Origin: an uncultured Faecalibacterium sp.
GTDB taxonomy: Bacteria > Bacillota > Clostridia > Oscillospirales > Ruminococcaceae
Reading direction: 5' to 3'
DNA: 37,791 nt
Assembly (NCBI GenBank): GCA_944386015.1
Contig: CALWZK010000017.1
Location: 1 to 37,791 of the forward strand
This document shows, in pieces, positions 378 to 9,195 of this stretch; the stretch's first letter is position 1; every line of letters starts with the position of its first letter. The notes below the pieces were generated by a model, which was not told where the DNA came from, searched no databases, and saw only the letters and a program-made list of their open reading frames with translations. Made by a program: the position numbers and the translations under genes.

Positions 378-419
378 AGAATTATCTGTTGTTCAGGAAT
401 GGAAAAGGAGTATGCAACC

Positions 420-1700
420 ATGACCCACAAGAACGTTTACACTGTGGTGGTGGCCGACGATGAGGATATGCTGCGGGAAGCCGTCTGCACCATGGTTCCC
501 TGGGCCGAGCTGGGGTTTTCGCTGGTGGGCAGCGCCACCAATGGCCTGGATGCCCTGGAACTGGTGGAAAAGCTGGAGCCTGACCTGCTGCTCACCGACA
601 TCCGGATGCCCTTCATCTCGGGCATCGAACTGGCCCGCCAGGTGCGGGAGATCCGCCCGGCCATGAACATTGCCTTTTTGAGCGGATACGATGATTTTTC
701 CTACGCCAAGCAGGCCATCCAGTATAACATCATCAGCTATATGCTCAAGCCGCTGACCATCGACGGCATCGCGGCCGAGCTGCGGACGGTGCATCAGAAG
801 ATGGACGCCCAGTTTGCCCTGTTCCGCCAGGCCTCCCAGACCCAGGCCCCGCCCCGCCAGGACAAGCGGGCGGTGTTCCTGATGCCCCTGGTGCTGGACG
901 AATACGCCCAGCCCGACGCCAACACCGGCACCTATGCGGTGGAGTGCGGCCTGCTGCAGGACAAGACCGACAAGCCTTATTATACGGTGATGGCGGTCAC
1001 CATCCAGACCGACCAGGGGGAGGCCTGCACCACCCCGGCTTTCGCCTCCACCGTGGACAAGCTGGCGGTCAAGTACCTGCGGAATGTCAGCTTTTTCTCG
1101 GGGGGCCGGGTGATCAGCGTGCTGCTGGGCAACCCCTCGGATTTTGAGGAGTACATGCACATTCTGGCCGACGAGATCAGCCAGATTGCCGACCGTGTGC
1201 TGGGGTGCCGGTGCCGCATCGGCGTCAGCCGGATGACCCCCGACCTCTCCCAGCTCCACAATGCCTACCGGGAGGCCATGGAGGCCATGCAGAAGGCCGA
1301 CCCCGCCGAAGGGGGCGTCCGGTTTGTGGGGGACCTGAAGCCCACCGCCGGCGGCAGCGGCCTGTGCCAGCGGGCCCTGGAGGCCCTGGACAAGCACTAC
1401 ATGGAGGCGGATCTGTCCCTGGTGTCCCTCAGCGGGATGCTGGACGTCAGCCCCAACCACCTGAGCGCCTGCATCAAGAAATATGCCGGGGAGACCTTCA
1501 TCAATATCCTGATCCGCAAGCGGATGGAGGCTGCCCGCCAGCTGCTGGAAACCACCGACCTCCGGATTCAGGAGGTGGCGGGGCGCTGCGGCTATCTGGA
1601 CCAGCACTACTTCAGCTACTGCTTTAAGAAATACGCCGGGGAGTCTCCCAATGCCTTCCGCCGCCGGCTGCGCGCGGCCCCCGGGGAGGCCGCCCAATGA
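420..1700 (+). CDS. YesN-type response regulator (receiver plus AraC HTH)
   Basis: This is a cytoplasmic DNA-binding response regulator of 426 residues. An N-terminal receiver domain (about 5-125) has the acidic pair D13/D14, phospho-acceptor D60 in LLLTDIRMP, S88 and K110. A middle region of unknown fold follows, and the C-terminus (about 325-420) is a double helix-turn-helix of the AraC family. The open frame runs upstream to 270 across the IS boundary, but the ATG at 420 has AAAGGAG at 404-410, nine bases away, and sits behind the promoter at 349-377, so it is the likely start. It overlaps the kinase gene by 4 bases (ATGA), indicating translational coupling. By analogy with other YesM/YesN loci it probably activates the downstream mgl genes. 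Confidence 0.9.
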   Translation: MTHKNVYTVVVADDEDMLREAVCTMVPWAELGFSLVGSATNGLDALELVEKLEPDLLLTDIRMPFISGIELARQVREIRPAMNIAFLSGYDDFSYAKQAIQYNIISYMLKPLTIDGIAAELRTVHQKMDAQFALFRQASQTQAPPRQDKRAVFLMPLVLDEYAQPDANTGTYAVECGLLQDKTDKPYYTVMAVTIQTDQGEACTTPAFASTVDKLAVKYLRNVSFFSGGRVISVLLGNPSDFEEYMHILADEISQIADRVLGCRCRIGVSRMTPDLSQLHNAYREAMEAMQKADPAEGGVRFVGDLKPTAGGSGLCQRALEALDKHYMEADLSLVSLSGMLDVSPNHLSACIKKYAGETFINILIRKRMEAARQLLETTDLRIQEVAGRCGYLDQHYFSYCFKKYAGESPNAFRRRLRAAPGEAAQ

Positions 1701-3415
1701 CCGGCCCGGCCAAAACCCGGCTGCGGATCACCACCATCCTGGTGAGCATGGTGGTGGGGGTGGTGGCGGTGATCCTGGTGTGCTGCATCGGCTTGTTCCT
1801 CAACCGGTATCACCAGGCCATCGTCCAGAACGCCCGCACCAGCAGCGAACAGGCGGTGGCCCAGGTGTCCAACACGGTGGCCGACTACCTGGAAATCATG
1901 GACCAGTCCATGTCCATTGTCCAGCAGACCCTGGGCCAGCCCGCCGCCAAGCGGGATTCCATGCTGAATGCCTTTCTGAACTTCCGGCCGGATGTGGTGG
2001 CCGTCACCAGCTACAGCCCCGGCGGGGCGCTGCTGGACTGCTGGACCCTGGGCCGGGACCCCAAGGAACACATTGTGGCCAACCTCTCCTTCGATTACAA
2101 CCGGGCCCGCCAGGCCTCGGAACCTTACATGACGGCGCCCCATGTGGAGACCATTTTTGACCGTTACTACCCCTGGGTGGTGACCATGACGGCGCCCCTG
2201 GAGGACGGGGGCGAGGCGGCCTGGGTGTCCCTGGACCTGAGCTTTTCCAGCCTGTCCAGCGCCATCAACAATGTGGGCATCGGCAGCCGGGGCTACTGCT
2301 TTTTGCTGGATGCCGACGGCAACCTGGTCTACCACCCCCAGCAGCAGCTGATCTACGCCGACCTGAAAAGCGAAAACACCGCGGATCTGGTGGGCCTGGC
2401 GGACGGCGTCTACGACAACGGCACCGTCATCACCTGCATCAACAGCGTGGGCACCAGCGGCTGGCGCGTGGTGGGCGTGAGCTATGTGGACGAGCTGGTG
2501 GACCGGAACATGAGTGAGATGGTCCGGCTGTCCCTGGTGCTGGGGGTTGTGGTGCTGGCAGCGGCGGTGCTCACCAGCTGGGTGCTGTCCCAGCTGCTGG
2601 GCCGGCCCCTGCGGGGCCTGGCCGAGGCCATGGAGCGCTTTGAGTCGGACGCCGACCACTTCACCTATTCCCCGGTGGGAGGCACCCGGGAAGTGCAGGA
2701 GCTGTCTGCTTCCTTCAGCCACATGGTGTGCCGGATCCAGCAGCTGATGGTGACGGTGCGCCAGGAGGAGATCAACCTGCGCAAAACCGAACTGAAGGCC
2801 CTGCAGGCCCAGATCAACCCCCACTTCCTGTACAATACCCTGGATTCCATCGCCTGGATGTGCGAGCAGGGGCAGAACGCCGACGCGGTCCAGATGGTCC
2901 ATGCTCTGGCCCGGCTGTTCCGGATCAGCATCAGCAAGGGCCACGAACTGATCCCCATTGCCAAGGAGATCGAGCACGCCGAAAGCTACCTGCAGATTCA
3001 GAAGTACCGGTATAAAAACCGGTTCAGCTATGATTTCCAGGTGGACCCCTCCTGCCTGGATTACCTGTGCAACAAGATCACCCTCCAGCCCATCATCGAG
3101 AACGCCATCAACCACGGGCTGGACCTGCTGGTGGAAGAGGGCCACATCCAGGTGGAGGTGAAGCCCGACGGGGATGACATCCTGTTCCGGGTGATTGATG
3201 ACGGGGTGGGGATGAGCCCGGAACAGGTGGAGGCCATCATGAACCAGAAACCCAAGGACCACACCGGCATCGGCATCCGGAACGTCAACGACCGGCTGAA
3301 GATCTATTTCGGCAAACAGTACGGGCTGCGGATCGAAAGCGTGCCGGACGAGGGCACCTGTGTGGAAATCCGGATGCCCAAAGTGCGGCAGGAGGATGCC
3401 TATGAGACGAAATAA
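1697..3415 (+). CDS. YesM-type sensor histidine kinase
   Basis: A membrane sensor kinase of 572 residues. The first membrane segment is about 11-34, an extracellular Cache-like sensing region follows (about 35-275), the second membrane segment is about 277-299, and a HAMP linker comes next. The kinase part is of the His_kinase family (PF06580): ALQAQINPHFLYNTLDS with the phosphorylated His at 376, then the HATPase region with N-box IIENAINHG (466-474), DDGVGM (501-506) and GIGIRNV (524-530). It is coupled by ATGA to the response regulator and overlaps the next gene, a sugar-binding lipoprotein, by 14 bases. That tight packing suggests the binding protein may present ligand to the Cache domain. 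Confidence 0.92.
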   Translation: MTGPAKTRLRITTILVSMVVGVVAVILVCCIGLFLNRYHQAIVQNARTSSEQAVAQVSNTVADYLEIMDQSMSIVQQTLGQPAAKRDSMLNAFLNFRPDVVAVTSYSPGGALLDCWTLGRDPKEHIVANLSFDYNRARQASEPYMTAPHVETIFDRYYPWVVTMTAPLEDGGEAAWVSLDLSFSSLSSAINNVGIGSRGYCFLLDADGNLVYHPQQQLIYADLKSENTADLVGLADGVYDNGTVITCINSVGTSGWRVVGVSYVDELVDRNMSEMVRLSLVLGVVVLAAAVLTSWVLSQLLGRPLRGLAEAMERFESDADHFTYSPVGGTREVQELSASFSHMVCRIQQLMVTVRQEEINLRKTELKALQAQINPHFLYNTLDSIAWMCEQGQNADAVQMVHALARLFRISISKGHELIPIAKEIEHAESYLQIQKYRYKNRFSYDFQVDPSCLDYLCNKITLQPIIENAINHGLDLLVEEGHIQVEVKPDGDDILFRVIDDGVGMSPEQVEAIMNQKPKDHTGIGIRNVNDRLKIYFGKQYGLRIESVPDEGTCVEIRMPKVRQEDAYETK

Positions 3416-4373
3416 GCTGTGGGCCCTGCTGACGGCCGCAGCCCTGCTGGCGGGCTGCCTGGGAAGCTGCAGCCAGAGCGCCCCGGCGGGGGCCCGCCAC
3501 AAGGTGGCCCTGGTGGGAAAATCCGAGACCAGCGAATTTTTCCGGTCGGTGTATGCGGGGGCCCAGGCGGCTGCCACCGAATACAACCTGGATCTGACCA
3601 TTTCCAGCCCCGAAACCGAAGAGGACTACGAGACCCAGAACCAGCTGGTGGAGGAGGCGGTGGCCGCCGGCGCCGAGGCCCTGGTGTTTTCGGCGGCGGA
3701 CTATGAGAACAGCGCCCAGGCCATCGATGCCGCCGCGGCCCAGGGGGTCCGGATTGTGGCCATCGACTCCAACGTGAATTCCAAAGGGGTGGAGACCTAC
3801 ATCGGCACCGACAACTATGCCGCCGGCCAGATGGCGGCCCAGGCCGCCCTGGACGGGATGAAGGGCCGGCTGGTGGTGGGGATCATCAATTACGATGTCC
3901 GCAGCGCCAACGGCCAGGGCCGGGAGCAGGGGGCAAGGGAAACCTTTGCCGACAGCGGCCGGGCCCGGGTGGCGGCGGTGGTGAACACCCTGGCCGAGTC
4001 GGGCCGGGCCCAGGCCGACACCACCGCCATGCTGAAGGACCACCCCGAGATCAATGTGGTGCTGGCCTTCAATGAGCCCACCAGTGTGGGGGCCGCCGCT
4101 GCGGTGGCCCAGATGGGCCTGTCCGACCGGGTGTATCTGGTGGGCTTCGACTCCAACGTGGCCACGGTGGAGGGGCTGCAGAACGGCAGCGTGGATGCGC
4201 TGGTGGTCCAGAACCCCTACGCCATGGGCTACATGGGGGTGGAGAGCGCCTACCAGCTGCTCACCGGCCAGGGCAGCCGGCTGTCTGACACCGTCGACAC
4301 CAGCACCCGTGTGGTGACGCTGGAGAACATGTTTACCATGGACAGCCAGAAGGCTTTATTCGCCTTCCAATGA
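3402..4373 (+). CDS. Sugar-binding lipoprotein (Peripla_BP_4), probable co-sensor
   Basis: A 323-residue periplasmic-binding-protein-fold lipoprotein. The signal ends in LLAGC, a lipobox with the acylated Cys at 18. The mature part runs in the usual type I order: KVALVGKS strand 1, VAAGAEALVFSA, GVRIVAIDSNV, YIGTDNYAAG, VVLAFNEPTSVGAA and VYLVGFDSN. The start at 3402 has AGGAGG six bases upstream, inside the end of the kinase gene. Family members bind ribose-, galactose- or xylose-type sugars; the ligand here cannot be read from sequence. Because it shares an operon with the kinase pair and not with the transporter (which has its own promoter at 4472), it may be a dedicated sensory protein, as described for XylFII-LytS in clostridia. 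Confidence 0.85.
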   Translation: MRRNKLWALLTAAALLAGCLGSCSQSAPAGARHKVALVGKSETSEFFRSVYAGAQAAATEYNLDLTISSPETEEDYETQNQLVEEAVAAGAEALVFSAADYENSAQAIDAAAAQGVRIVAIDSNVNSKGVETYIGTDNYAAGQMAAQAALDGMKGRLVVGIINYDVRSANGQGREQGARETFADSGRARVAAVVNTLAESGRAQADTTAMLKDHPEINVVLAFNEPTSVGAAAAVAQMGLSDRVYLVGFDSNVATVEGLQNGSVDALVVQNPYAMGYMGVESAYQLLTGQGSRLSDTVDTSTRVVTLENMFTMDSQKALFAFQ

Positions 4374-4579: not shown

Positions 4580-5869
4580 ATGAGAAAAGCGATTGCATTG
4601 ACAATGGCTACTGTGATGGCTCTGAGCCTGGCTGCCTGCGGCGGCTCCGGTTCTTCCACCACCACCGCACAGTCCGGCGGTACCAGCACTGCTGCTGAGA
4701 CCAGCACCGTGGCCAACAAGGATAAGCCCCTGATTTGGTTCAACCGTCAGCCCTCTAACTCCACCACCGGTGAACTGGACCAGGCTGCCCTGTCCTTCAA
4801 CGACAACACCTACTACGTCGGCTTCGACGCCAACCAGGGCGCTGAGCTGCAGGGCCAGATGGTCAAGGATTACATCGAGGCCCACGCTGACACCATCGAC
4901 CGCAACGGCGACGGCGTCATCGGCTACGTGCTGGCCATCGGCGATATCGGCCACAACGACTCCATCGCCCGTACCCGCGGCGTTCGCAGCGCTCTGGGCA
5001 CCGCAGTGGAAGGCGACAACGGCATCGTCAGTGATCCCGTGGGCGTCAACACCGACGGCACCGCCACTGCTGTGCAGGACGGCACCATCGAAGTGAACGG
5101 CACCACCTACACCGTCCGTGAGCTGGCCAGCCAGGAGATGAAGAACTCCGCCGGTGCTACCTGGGATGCAGGTACCGCAGGCAACGCCATCACCACCTGG
5201 GCTGCTTCTCTGGGTGACCAGATTGATATCGTTGTTTCCAACAACGACGGCATGGGCATGGCAATGTTCAACTCCTGGTCCCGCGCCAACAGCGTTCCCA
5301 CCTTCGGCTACGACGCCAACGCTGACGCTGTGGCTGCCATCGCAGAAGGCTACGGCGGCACCATCAGCCAGCACGCTGACGTGCAGGCTTACCTGACCCT
5401 CCGCCTGATCCGCAATGCTCTGGACGGCGTGGACATCAACACCGGCATCGCCACCGAGGATGACGCAGGCAACGTGCTGAGCGACGACGTGTACTACTAC
5501 GACGAAGCTTCCCGTTCCTACTACGCACTGAACGTTGCAGTTACCGCTGACAACTACGAGGATTACCTGGATTCCACCGTGCCTTACGCACCTGTTTCCA
5601 ACCAGCTGGATTCCGCTACCCACGCCGAGAAGAGCGTGTGGCTGGACATCTACAACGCAGCTGATAACTTCCTGAGCGCCACCTACCAGCCCCTGCTGCA
5701 GAAGTACGACGATCTGCTGAACCTGAAGGTGGATTACATCGGCGGCGACGGCCAGAACGAGTCCAACATCACCAACCGTCTGGGCAACCCCAGCCAGTAT
5801 GATGCATTCGCCATCAACATGGTCAAGACCGACAACGCCACTTCTTACACTGCCCTGCTGAGCCAGTAA
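4580..5869 (+). CDS. mglB: Galactose-binding lipoprotein MglB, apparently circularly permuted
   Basis: A 429-residue lipoprotein (lipobox LSLAAC, Cys20, then a Ser/Thr/Gly linker). It binds glucose/galactose for the MglAC transporter. Residues 49-345 match E. coli MglB from about residue 85 to its C-terminus: LIWFNRQPS, YYVGFDANQGAELQG, an EF-hand-like calcium loop DRNGDGVIG (107-115), IARTRG, TWDAG, IVVSNNDGMGM, FGYDANAD and ISQHAD. Residues 352-427 (SVWLDIYNAADNFLS ... AFAINMVKTD) match the mature N-terminus of MglB (IYKYDDNFMS ... ALAINLVDPA). So the order is circularly permuted, in one unbroken frame. Ligand residues N55, R131, W195, N221 or N222, D245 and D362 have counterparts. GCT, GTT and CGT codons are commoner than in neighbours, suggesting high expression. 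Start: AAAAGGAG eight bases before the ATG. Identity as a galactose-family binding protein is firm; the exact sugar is not. Confidence 0.9.
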   Translation: MRKAIALTMATVMALSLAACGGSGSSTTTAQSGGTSTAAETSTVANKDKPLIWFNRQPSNSTTGELDQAALSFNDNTYYVGFDANQGAELQGQMVKDYIEAHADTIDRNGDGVIGYVLAIGDIGHNDSIARTRGVRSALGTAVEGDNGIVSDPVGVNTDGTATAVQDGTIEVNGTTYTVRELASQEMKNSAGATWDAGTAGNAITTWAASLGDQIDIVVSNNDGMGMAMFNSWSRANSVPTFGYDANADAVAAIAEGYGGTISQHADVQAYLTLRLIRNALDGVDINTGIATEDDAGNVLSDDVYYYDEASRSYYALNVAVTADNYEDYLDSTVPYAPVSNQLDSATHAEKSVWLDIYNAADNFLSATYQPLLQKYDDLLNLKVDYIGGDGQNESNITNRLGNPSQYDAFAINMVKTDNATSYTALLSQ

Positions 5870-5904
5870 CACGATTCAGCGAGCTGTGACAAAGCTCTAA
5901 TGGA

Positions 5905-5968
5905 GCGCTATTAGGGAGAAGGAAATTCTCCATTGGGGAGAAGAGCCCTCCCTAATAGCGCCTTTTTT
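5905..5968 (+). terminator. Hairpin with T-tract between mglB and mglA
   Basis: A perfect 14-bp stem (5905-5918 and 5948-5961) is followed by six T's (5963-5968); a smaller GGAGAA/TTCTCC hairpin lies within. Such elements between a binding-protein gene and its ATPase gene usually act as partial terminators or mRNA stabilisers, so that binding protein outnumbers the membrane complex. Confidence 0.8.
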
Positions 5969-6022
5969 GTGGGGGCGGCCTGCCGCCCCGAGGAGATCCA
6001 ACGTAAGACTGGAGGGACGAGA

Positions 6023-7531
6023 ATGGCGGAACCGAAAGAAGACATCGTCTTGTCGATTCGCGGCATGTGCAAGTCATTCGGACGCAACCGTGTGCTGGAC
6101 CACATCAATCTGGATGTGAAACGGGGCACTGTCATGGGACTGATGGGCGAGAATGGCGCCGGCAAATCCACCATGATGAAGTGCCTGTTCGGCACCTATC
6201 AAAAAGACGAGGGCAAAATTATCCTGAACGGCAAAGAGGTCAGCTTCTCCGGACCCAAGGATGCACTGGAAAACGGCATTGCCATGGTGCATCAGGAGCT
6301 GAACCAGTGCCTGGAGCGCAGCGTCACCGATAACCTGTTCCTGGGGCGGTACCCCGTCAAGGGCATGGGCGTGGTGGACGAGGCCCAGATGAAGCGCAAA
6401 GCGGCAGACCTGTTCCGCCGCCTGGGCATGACGGTCAACCTGACCCAGCCCATGCGGAACATGTCGGTGTCCCAGCGGCAGATGTGCGAGATCGCCAAGG
6501 CCATCTCCTACAATGCCCAGGTCATCGTTCTGGACGAGCCCACTTCCTCCCTGACGGTGCAGGAAGTGAACAAGCTGTTCGAGATGATGCGGATGCTGAA
6601 ATCCCAGGGCATCGCACTGATTTACATCTCCCACAAGATGGACGAAATCTTCGAGATCTGCGACGAGGTCTCGGTGCTGCGGGACGGCAACCTGGTGATG
6701 ACCAAGTCCACCAAGGAAACCAACATGAACGAGCTGATCGCCGCCATGGTGGGCCGCTCCCTGGAAAGCCGGTTCCCGCCGGTGGACAACACCCCCGGCG
6801 AGCCCATCCTGTCGGTGCAGCACCTGTCCACCAAGTATGCACCCCACCTGCAGGACATCACCTTTGATGTGCGGGAAGGCGAAATCTTCGGCCTGTACGG
6901 CCTGGTGGGCGCCGGACGCACCGAGCTGCTGGAAACCATCTTCGGCGTGCGCACCCGCGCCGCCGGCCGGGTTTACTTCCGCGGGCGGCTGATGAACTTC
7001 AACGACGCCCGGGAGGCCATTGAGCACGGCTTCGCCCTCATCACCGAGGAGCGGAAGGCCAACGGCCTGTTCCTGAAAGGCAACCTGACCTTCAACACCA
7101 CCATCGCCAACCTGGACCAGTACAAAGTTGGCCTGGCGCTGTCCAAACCCAAGATGGTCAAGGCCACCAGCAAAGAGATCAAGATCATGCACACCAAGTG
7201 CATGGGCCCCGATGATATGATTTCCAGCCTGTCCGGCGGCAACCAGCAGAAGGTTATCTTCGGCAAGTGGCTGGAGCGGGAGCCTCAGGTCTTTATGATG
7301 GATGAGCCCACCCGCGGCATCGACGTGGGCGCCAAGTATGAGATCTATGAGCTGATCATCCAGATGGCCAAACAGGGCAAGACCATCATCGTGGTCTCTT
7401 CCGAGATGCCCGAGATTCTGGGCATCACCAACCGGATCGGCGTCATGTCCAACGGCCACCTGTCCGGCATTGTGGAGACCAAGAAGACCAACCAGGAAGA
7501 GCTTTTACGCCTGAGTGCGAAATACCTGTGA
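6023..7531 (+). CDS. mglA: Galactose/methyl galactoside import ATPase MglA
   Basis: A 502-residue double ABC ATPase of the sugar-import (CUT2) class. First cassette: Walker A GENGAGKST (42-50), signature MSVSQRQMCEIAKA and Walker B VIVLDEPTSS. Second cassette: degenerate Walker A GLVGAGRTE (from 293), signature LSGGNQQK (from 403) and Walker B VFMMDEPT (from 423). The degenerate second P-loop is normal for MglA/RbsA. The start at 6023 is preceded by GGAGGG; the frame continues upstream but through the terminator hairpin. mglC follows after 14 bases, so the two are co-translated. It powers uptake of the sugar delivered by the permuted MglB. Confidence 0.95.
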   Translation: MAEPKEDIVLSIRGMCKSFGRNRVLDHINLDVKRGTVMGLMGENGAGKSTMMKCLFGTYQKDEGKIILNGKEVSFSGPKDALENGIAMVHQELNQCLERSVTDNLFLGRYPVKGMGVVDEAQMKRKAADLFRRLGMTVNLTQPMRNMSVSQRQMCEIAKAISYNAQVIVLDEPTSSLTVQEVNKLFEMMRMLKSQGIALIYISHKMDEIFEICDEVSVLRDGNLVMTKSTKETNMNELIAAMVGRSLESRFPPVDNTPGEPILSVQHLSTKYAPHLQDITFDVREGEIFGLYGLVGAGRTELLETIFGVRTRAAGRVYFRGRLMNFNDAREAIEHGFALITEERKANGLFLKGNLTFNTTIANLDQYKVGLALSKPKMVKATSKEIKIMHTKCMGPDDMISSLSGGNQQKVIFGKWLEREPQVFMMDEPTRGIDVGAKYEIYELIIQMAKQGKTIIVVSSEMPEILGITNRIGVMSNGHLSGIVETKKTNQEELLRLSAKYL

Positions 7532-7545
7532 GCGGGGGATAGAAT

Positions 7546-9195
7546 ATGGCAACAAGTACGATTCTTTCGACGGAGCGGGAAGTGGAACTCCGCAAACCCA
7601 TCGATGATTATGTAGGAAAAATCCAGGCGCAGATCGACGAGCTGCGCCACGAAGGCACCGAGAAGGCTGTCAACATCCAGAATGATCTGGACAACCTCAA
7701 GCGGGACCGCATTTATACCGCTGAGGAAAAGGCCGCCCGTCAGGCCGAGCTGAAAAAGCAGCTGGAGGCAGCCAAGGCAGTGGAGGCCAAGAACAAGCCC
7801 CAGGTGGACAAGCTGATCGCCGACGCAGAGGCTTACCTGAAGGCCCACTACAAGACCGACTACTTCGACCATGTGGTGGCCAGCTGCCAGCAGGAAAAGG
7901 CTGCTGCCCAGCAGCGGTATCAGGAGGCTGTGGCCAAGCTGGAAAAAGAGCACCAGGGCATCATCGCCAAGCTGAGCGACTCCAAAGAGATCAAGGACGA
8001 GAAATACGTCTACAAAAACCGCCTGTTTGACGCCAAGATGCAGCGGGATCAGGAACTGCAGGGCATCAAGGACCGGCGCCACGCCGCCTTTGATTACAAG
8101 TATCACCTGATCGACATGCTGCGGCTGTCCAAGTACACCTTCGCCGAGAGCATCGCTCAGCGCTGGGAGAACTACACCTACACCTTCAACAGCCGCGACT
8201 TCTTCCTGAAGAACGGCCTGTACATCGCCATCATCATCGTCTTCGCAGCTCTGTGCGTCATCACCCCTGTGGTCAAGGGCGTGCAGCTGCTGACGGTCAA
8301 CAACATCCTGAACATCCTGCAGCAGGCTTCGCCCCGTATGTTCCTGGCTCTGGGCGTGGCTGGCCTGATCCTGCTGGCCGGCACCGACCTGTCCATCGGC
8401 CGTATGGTGGGCATGGGCATGACCGCTGCCACCATCGTGATGCACCAGGGCCCCAACACCGGCTCGGTGTTCGGTGCAGTCTTTGATTTCTCCGGCCTGC
8501 CGGTTCCCGTCCGCATCCTGCTGGCTCTGGTTGTCTGCATTGTGCTGTGCACCATCTTCACCACCATCGCAGGCTTCTTCACCGCCCGGTTCAAGATGCA
8601 CCCCTTCATCTCCACCATGGCCAACATGCTGGTGATCTTCGGTCTGGTGACCTACTCCACCAAGGGCGTGTCCTTCGGTGCCATTGATACCACCATTCCC
8701 AGCATGATCATCCCCCGCATCGGCGGCTTCCCCACCATCATCCTGTGGGCTGCTGCAGCCGTGGTCATCGTCTGGTTCATCTGGAACAAGACCACCTTCG
8801 GCAAGAACCTGTTCGCCGTGGGCGGCAACGCTGAGGCTGCTGCCGTTTCCGGTATCTCGGTGTTCTGGGTCACTGTGGGCGCCTTTGTTCTGGCAGGTGT
8901 CCTGTACGGCTTCGGCTCCTGGCTGGAGTGCATCCGTATGTTCGGTTCCGGCTCGGCTGCTTATGGCCAGGGCTGGGAGATGGACGCCATCGCAGCCTGC
9001 GTCGTGGGCGGCGTGTCCTTCACCGGTGGTATCGGCAAGATCTCCGGCGTGGTGGTCGGCGTGTTCATCTTCACCGCACTGACTTACTCCCTGACCACTC
9101 TGGGCATTGATGCCAACCTGCAGTTCGTCTTCTCCGGCATCATCATCCTGGTGGCTGTTATGCTGGACTGCCTGAAGTACGTTCAGAAGAAGTAA
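7546..9195 (+). CDS. mglC: MglC-type sugar permease with a long N-terminal coiled-coil region
   Basis: A 549-residue membrane protein. Residues about 225-549 are a standard BPD_transp_2 permease: NILQQASPRMFLALGVAG, LLAGTDLSIGRMVGMG and the AVGGNAEAAAVSGI loop, with 8-10 hydrophobic segments. Residues 1-222 are extra: soluble, highly charged and rich in Lys, Glu, Ala and Gln (AEEKAARQAELKKQLEAA, QQRYQEAVAKLEKEH), predicted coiled coil and presumably cytoplasmic next to the ATPase. E. coli MglC is about 336 residues and lacks it. The fusion is in one frame with no internal Shine-Dalgarno at the permease start that I can see. The function of the extension is unknown; scaffolding or control of MglA is a guess. 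Ribosome-binding site GGGGGA, weak. Confidence 0.9.
   Translation: MATSTILSTEREVELRKPIDDYVGKIQAQIDELRHEGTEKAVNIQNDLDNLKRDRIYTAEEKAARQAELKKQLEAAKAVEAKNKPQVDKLIADAEAYLKAHYKTDYFDHVVASCQQEKAAAQQRYQEAVAKLEKEHQGIIAKLSDSKEIKDEKYVYKNRLFDAKMQRDQELQGIKDRRHAAFDYKYHLIDMLRLSKYTFAESIAQRWENYTYTFNSRDFFLKNGLYIAIIIVFAALCVITPVVKGVQLLTVNNILNILQQASPRMFLALGVAGLILLAGTDLSIGRMVGMGMTAATIVMHQGPNTGSVFGAVFDFSGLPVPVRILLALVVCIVLCTIFTTIAGFFTARFKMHPFISTMANMLVIFGLVTYSTKGVSFGAIDTTIPSMIIPRIGGFPTIILWAAAAVVIVWFIWNKTTFGKNLFAVGGNAEAAAVSGISVFWVTVGAFVLAGVLYGFGSWLECIRMFGSGSAAYGQGWEMDAIAACVVGGVSFTGGIGKISGVVVGVFIFTALTYSLTTLGIDANLQFVFSGIIILVAVMLDCLKYVQKK

Follow-up and report, generated by a model that had tools for sequence, protein, structure and literature searches.

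Circularly permuted MglB of the TpMglB-2 type in an mglBAC operon with an extended MglC from an uncultured Faecalibacterium

Can the galactose-binding protein MglB occur in nature with its N-terminal strands at its C-terminal end, and if so, is such an order real, is it new and does it go together with other changes of the importer? The question is raised by a gene in a stretch of 37,791 nucleotides from an uncultured Faecalibacterium sp., hereafter the window, in which the original prediction had seen a natural circular permutation of MglB. All features described below lie on the forward strand.

Order of the parts in MglB

The gene mglB (4580..5869), identified by its open reading frame, Pfam, PDB match, profile alignment and Foldseek, encodes a permuted, predicted galactose/glucose-binding lipoprotein of 429 aa. 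A lipoprotein signal up to the lipobox Cys20 (LAAC, by pattern match; 4580..4639) precedes a body formed by the remaining N-lobe and the entire C-lobe (aa 46-330; 4715..5569; PF13407, hhalign), a segment of about aa 331-350 linking the old C- and N-ends (5570..5629, from the alignment ends) and the displaced N-terminal segment with three beta-alpha units (about aa 351-429; 5630..5866; Pfam, hhalign, AlphaFold). Pfam places PF13407 at 75-283 and PF18610 at 350-420, the tail matching positions 1-71 of 71 of the latter with an E-value of 2.2e-41. Given aa 46-344, hhalign aligned aa 46-330 with residues 106-330 of the canonical E. coli MglB precursor (E 1.4e-34). The tail searched alone (aa 345-429) gave a collinear profile match of aa 353-418 to precursor 28-94 over 64 columns, with E 8.3e-5 and a probability of only 60.6% against the E. 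coli-led profile of canonical MglB. A rotated copy, with the tail placed before the body, aligned with the same profile from end to end, through 296 columns, and scored 272.7, where the body alone scored 241.5 and the native order 243.0; with the canonical group nearest by MglA as target, rotation raised the score only slightly, to 199.9 from 192.6 and 193.7. The NCBIfam model of canonical MglB, NF011924, recognises the protein in two stretches with 91.9 bits, below its cut-off of 420. The permuted order is thus confirmed, N-lobe strands 1-3 having moved to the C-terminus.

The break falls where it had been expected, between an N-lobe helix, ending near precursor residue 105, and the strand PVVFFN. 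A connection of the old ends is present as proposed, its length being nearer 20 residues (aa 331-350, between both hhalign alignments) than the 25 suggested; the following AlphaFold strand starts at model residue 306, which is aa 351 of MglB. This connection takes the place of the fourth hinge or connection described for TpMglB-2 in PMC4990184. The calcium loop and the ligand residues are also kept, as anticipated: DRNGDG is found at 107, and all ten pocket positions of Table 2 of PMC4990184 could be placed by eye from the alignments (N55, H125, D127, R131, W195, N222, D245, Q264, D362 and F364), nine being E. coli-like and Q264 being T. pallidum-like.

That this natural form had not been described before turned out to be wrong. 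The best PDB sequence matches of the protein are 5JX2, 6BGD and 6BGC, all of them TpMglB-2, with E-values of 5.9e-86 or better (best 6.1e-88), and the alignment is collinear between aa 46-427 of the 429-aa precursor and 19-385 of 387. The mature domain thereby shows coverage above 90% and matching N-termini, the criterion of PMC4990184. Five AlphaFold models built from 39 sequences spanned pLDDT values of 59.9-77.4, and the best of them (77.4, pTM 0.75) retrieved 5JX2 as its best Foldseek match with TM-scores of 0.80/0.84 over 389 columns, whereas for canonical MglB structures the alignment was limited to 282-289 columns (TMq 0.45-0.47). According to PMC4990184, published in 2016, TpMglB-2 of Treponema pallidum has a permuted topology in its crystal structure and binds D-glucose in vitro. 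The same paper reports the topology in treponemes and in Gram-positive bacteria, of which many are gut commensals, names the class Type Ic/Cluster Bc, and states that homologues of the permease gene tp0686 are similarly distributed. The MglB of the window is an ordinary member of this class. However striking a naturally rotated textbook protein may be, this form and its crystal structure were already published in 2016.

Ancestry and spread of the rearranged operon

The tail alignments bear on a question of ancestry that PMC4990184 raises and leaves open: the tail might be a piece of another gene which was recruited and converged on the same role. Such a recruitment would fit the 13% identity to E. 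coli MglB given there for the T. pallidum tail, the probability of only 57-61% obtained against the E. coli-led profile, and the canonical group nearest by MglA, which yields no significant tail match, neither with whole proteins (E 0.26-0.28, at another place) nor with their N-termini alone (E 0.07-0.09, collinear). However, the profile match to canonical MglB is collinear over 64 columns at the E-value of 8.3e-5 given above, and with the T. saccharophilum tail added to the profile it stands at E 1.1e-4 and a probability of 57.1%. In 100 column shuffles of the tail the lowest E-value was 3.1e-3, and the reversed tail gave 0.35. When the tail was compared by hhalign with single E. coli sequences, a long collinear match was obtained with MglB alone (65 columns, E 0.051, by itself not significant), six other sugar-binding proteins, RbsR and GalS giving E 0.11-0.65 over 20 columns or fewer, and the pocket residues D14 and F16 are retained, by eye, as D362 and F364. 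We therefore regard recruitment as unlikely; the tail matches the MglB N-terminus weakly but specifically, and at the level of sequence its homology is supported against the E. coli-led profile. A different domain for the tail is not supported, PF18610 being its sole Pfam match and the three TpMglB-2 sequences its only matches among PDB sequences up to E 10.

The genes mglB, mglA and mglC adjoin on one strand in the order BAC. The ATPase subunit MglA is encoded at 6020..7531 and the permease part of MglC (BPD_transp_2) at 8191..9195, both by Pfam and NCBIfam; the two proteins undershoot their NCBIfam equivalog cut-offs, with 666.7 of 828 bits for MglA and 266.8 of 386 for MglC. Between mglB and mglA a strong stem-loop with a T-run (5905..5968; z -3.84 for 5868-5985) is possibly a partial terminator, through which the binding protein would be produced in surplus. 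Upstream lie a response regulator with AraC-type output (399..1700, start uncertain, 402-1700 searched; Pfam), a sensor histidine kinase with a dCache domain (1697..3415; Pfam) and, by these sensor genes, a sugar-binding protein of canonical order (3402..4373, start uncertain, 3444-4373 searched; Pfam, NCBIfam). Loci titled Faecalibacterium, Gemmiger, Flavonifractor or Agathobaculum often carry close copies of the regulator, kinase and binding protein upstream; in many Lachnospiraceae-type loci more distant regulator and kinase matches stand downstream of mglC.

Relatives of the permuted MglB at E <= 1e-3 were found in 454 of 478 candidate stretches in genome contigs. Among the best 80 of these 454 the nearest is 99% identical and comes from a record titled uncultured Faecalibacterium, and the record titles include Faecalibacterium, Gemmiger, Flavonifractor, Lachnospiraceae, Erysipelotrichaceae and others. 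PF18610 was present in 2/299 genomes of a phylum draw, 7/247 of the own family, 3/341 of the own class (Clostridia) and 18/180 of the family of Clostridiales bacterium 1_7_47_FAA, taken as Lachnospiraceae; these draws overlap in part and the counts are not independent. Within the genus of the window PF18610 is missing from three genomes, each at least 99% complete (G379, G469 and G534), and the operon looks patchy there. In Treponema saccharophilum and in Agathobacter rectalis the permuted gene or operon is carried by a plasmid, and viral contigs gave no relative of the permuted MglB. On the 252-kb plasmid of A. rectalis the operon lies near an IS91-family transposase and integrases, a possible transfer vehicle.

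The window stems from a draft genome of 83 contigs, and an assembly chimera or a frame artefact might for this reason be suspected; the original prediction itself would have read the usual order at this locus in other isolates as the mark of a chimera. Instead, the match to the window MglB is collinear to aa 423 or beyond in 88/88 loci (the best 80 of 454 and eight more). The identical order in 80/80 of the kept loci, one of them a complete chromosome (L069), its presence on two plasmids and the TpMglB-2 crystal structures led us to reject an artefact, the chance of which is negligible.

Because the sampled MglA and MglC proteins of permuted systems each form one clade, a single origin of the rearrangement in a canonical mglBAC operon is most likely, after which it was passed on as an operon, probably in part by horizontal transfer. 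The MglA clade comprises 25/25 permuted rows with a FastTree support of 0.998, and 15/15 with an SH-aLRT of 100 in a tree from which ten permuted rows were left out. The best MglA trees place it inside canonical sequences, beside 13 clostridial rows (support 1.0; SH-aLRT 86), the outgroup rows being long; an alternative tree that keeps every canonical row in one group is not rejected (p-AU 0.163). The MglC clade (25/25) has a support of 1.0 and its placement a support of 0.27.

Lipid anchor and extended permease

It had been suggested that the rotation would attach the lipid anchor at a different face of the N-lobe, and PMC4990184, in another form, likewise links the permutation to lipid tethering as an adaptation, by which the pocket would be under less strain. 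One loose lipobox pattern, for which E. coli is the expected negative, was found in 83/89 permuted MglBs, including that of the window, and this is what an adaptation to tethering would lead one to expect. The same pattern, however, occurs in 26/28 canonical-order clostridial MglBs, while 6/89 permuted proteins miss it and five of them show no Cys at the signal end. Lipid tethering thus fails, in this sample, to tell permuted from canonical order; the lipobox counts speak against an adaptation to tethering, which we consider quite improbable. The five proteins without Cys at the signal end (L052, L057, L062, L080 and L087) are possibly secreted and not tethered.

MglC of the window has 549 aa and its permease match begins at aa 216 (NCBIfam), the preceding aa 1-215 forming an N-terminal extension (7546..8190). 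This extension is without a hydrophobic segment (highest 19-residue mean 0.27), and AlphaFold predicts in it three long helices (9-53, 59-142 and 146-193) with block pLDDT values of 79-92 in the region aa 11-190; confidence is low in the membrane part of the model. Free of hydrophobic segments and placed ahead of the first membrane helix, the extension most likely resides in the cytoplasm. A fold search with the MglC model, including its low-confidence membrane part, gave no match at E <= 0.001, the first 224 residues had none among PDB sequences up to E 1, and no description of the extension was found among the matches listed in the open-licence literature. Small clade-specific insertions are seen near aa 242-246, 311-313 and 320-323 (window 8269-8283 and 8476-8514), presumably in outer loops, a placement based on hydropathy and on the general topology of this permease family. 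In one locus (L065, from 8363) MglA and MglC matches share a 1113-aa open frame, a possible gene fusion.

In the loci and genomes sampled, the extension and the permuted MglB occur together. Among the best 80 of 454 loci MglC was matched in 72, in 72/72 starting at aa 7 or before, and in the other 8 the contig end precedes mglC; over these 80 loci and L153-L160 taken together, the match spans 74 MglCs from the N-terminal region up to the C-terminal end, those of L071 and L073 being about 40 aa shorter. In the class draw PF18610 and the extended MglC occur in identical 3/341 genomes, and MglC relatives at E <= 1e-20 are present in another 136 genomes; among their listed matches, the strongest by E-value, none begins before aa 192. 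In the second draw both occur in identical 18/180 genomes, in one of which (G878) a contig end cuts MglC and the match starts at aa 78; 36 other genomes match MglC only from aa 182 or later (E <= 1e-45). The identity of the genomes across paired searches was judged from equal numbers and shared labels, and in both draws the genomes that match only ordinary MglC are without PF18610. Thirty class-draw loci picked for an unextended MglC contained MglB in 28 cases, with canonical order in 28/28, the remaining 2 having no MglB in the stretch. T. saccharophilum, standing in for the treponemes, combines a permuted MglB of 401 aa with an MglC of 562 aa, aligned from window aa 20 at 43% identity.

These observations could mean that permuted MglB and extended MglC are a functional pair, in which the arm and the outer-loop changes alter docking or control of the importer. 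The identical genome sets (3/341 and 18/180), the 72/72 matches from the very N-terminus, the treponeme with both traits and the insertions presumed to lie in outer loops argue for it. On the other side, the genes are adjacent and co-inherited, and common descent gives an equal pattern; no locus with one trait and without the other was found, so that there is no independent contrast, the genome sets overlap, and conservation is lower in the extension than in the permease part. Since mglB and mglC are linked, their co-occurrence shows co-inheritance and not need, and we hold the functional pair only as a tentative reading. The earlier hint that the displaced anchor might suit the unusual MglC fares likewise: the association with the extended MglC stands, but an extension that is most likely cytoplasmic cannot touch the lipid anchor. 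It is conceivable, if somewhat doubtful, that a distinct, once-derived type of importer exists in gut Bacillota and treponemes, with an undescribed cytoplasmic arm and altered outer loops matched with a rotated MglB. If true, the rotation of the binding protein and the permease arm evolved as a pair changing importer docking or switching. This link to the extended MglC is the less familiar part of the system and turns the reason for the persistence of the rotated form into a testable question.

Proposed working and known relatives

We propose, with a probability of about 0.94, that the window encodes a rotated MglB of the TpMglB-2 type within a predicted glucose/galactose importer that arose once and was passed on as an operon. 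In the proposed course of events the first 80 or so mature residues of MglB, containing three N-lobe beta-alpha units, would have moved to the C-terminus, with a new connection of about 20 residues bridging the old ends. As the fold, the calcium loop and the sugar pocket are kept, the permuted protein should close on D-glucose or D-galactose and would pass the sugar to the MglA/MglC importer encoded downstream. After a single origin, the operon would have spread in part by horizontal transfer.

Compared with E. coli MglB (GGBP), both pieces of the window protein are homologous, the body strongly and the tail weakly, and the pocket and calcium loop are common to both; the window protein differs in being rotated at about mature residue 83, in having an extra connection of the old ends and in being a lipoprotein. 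In the galactose importer MglBAC of E. coli (CUT2-type), MglA and MglC are 52% and 39% identical to those of the window over aligned columns, but E. coli MglC (336 aa), like the MglC relatives listed in other genomes, is without the extension of about 215 aa. The Pfam family PF18610 (Peripla_BP_7) corresponds to the displaced segment of TpMglB-2-type MglB, and no difference from it was seen. The closest known relative is TpMglB-2 itself (Tp0684; 5JX2, 6BGC and 6BGD), which shares the rotated order, collinear over aa 46-427 at about 41% identity, and the pocket and calcium site; the window protein has D where TpMglB-2 has N311, at the position of D14 in E. coli MglB, is somewhat longer near aa 146-164 and belongs to a Gram-positive host.
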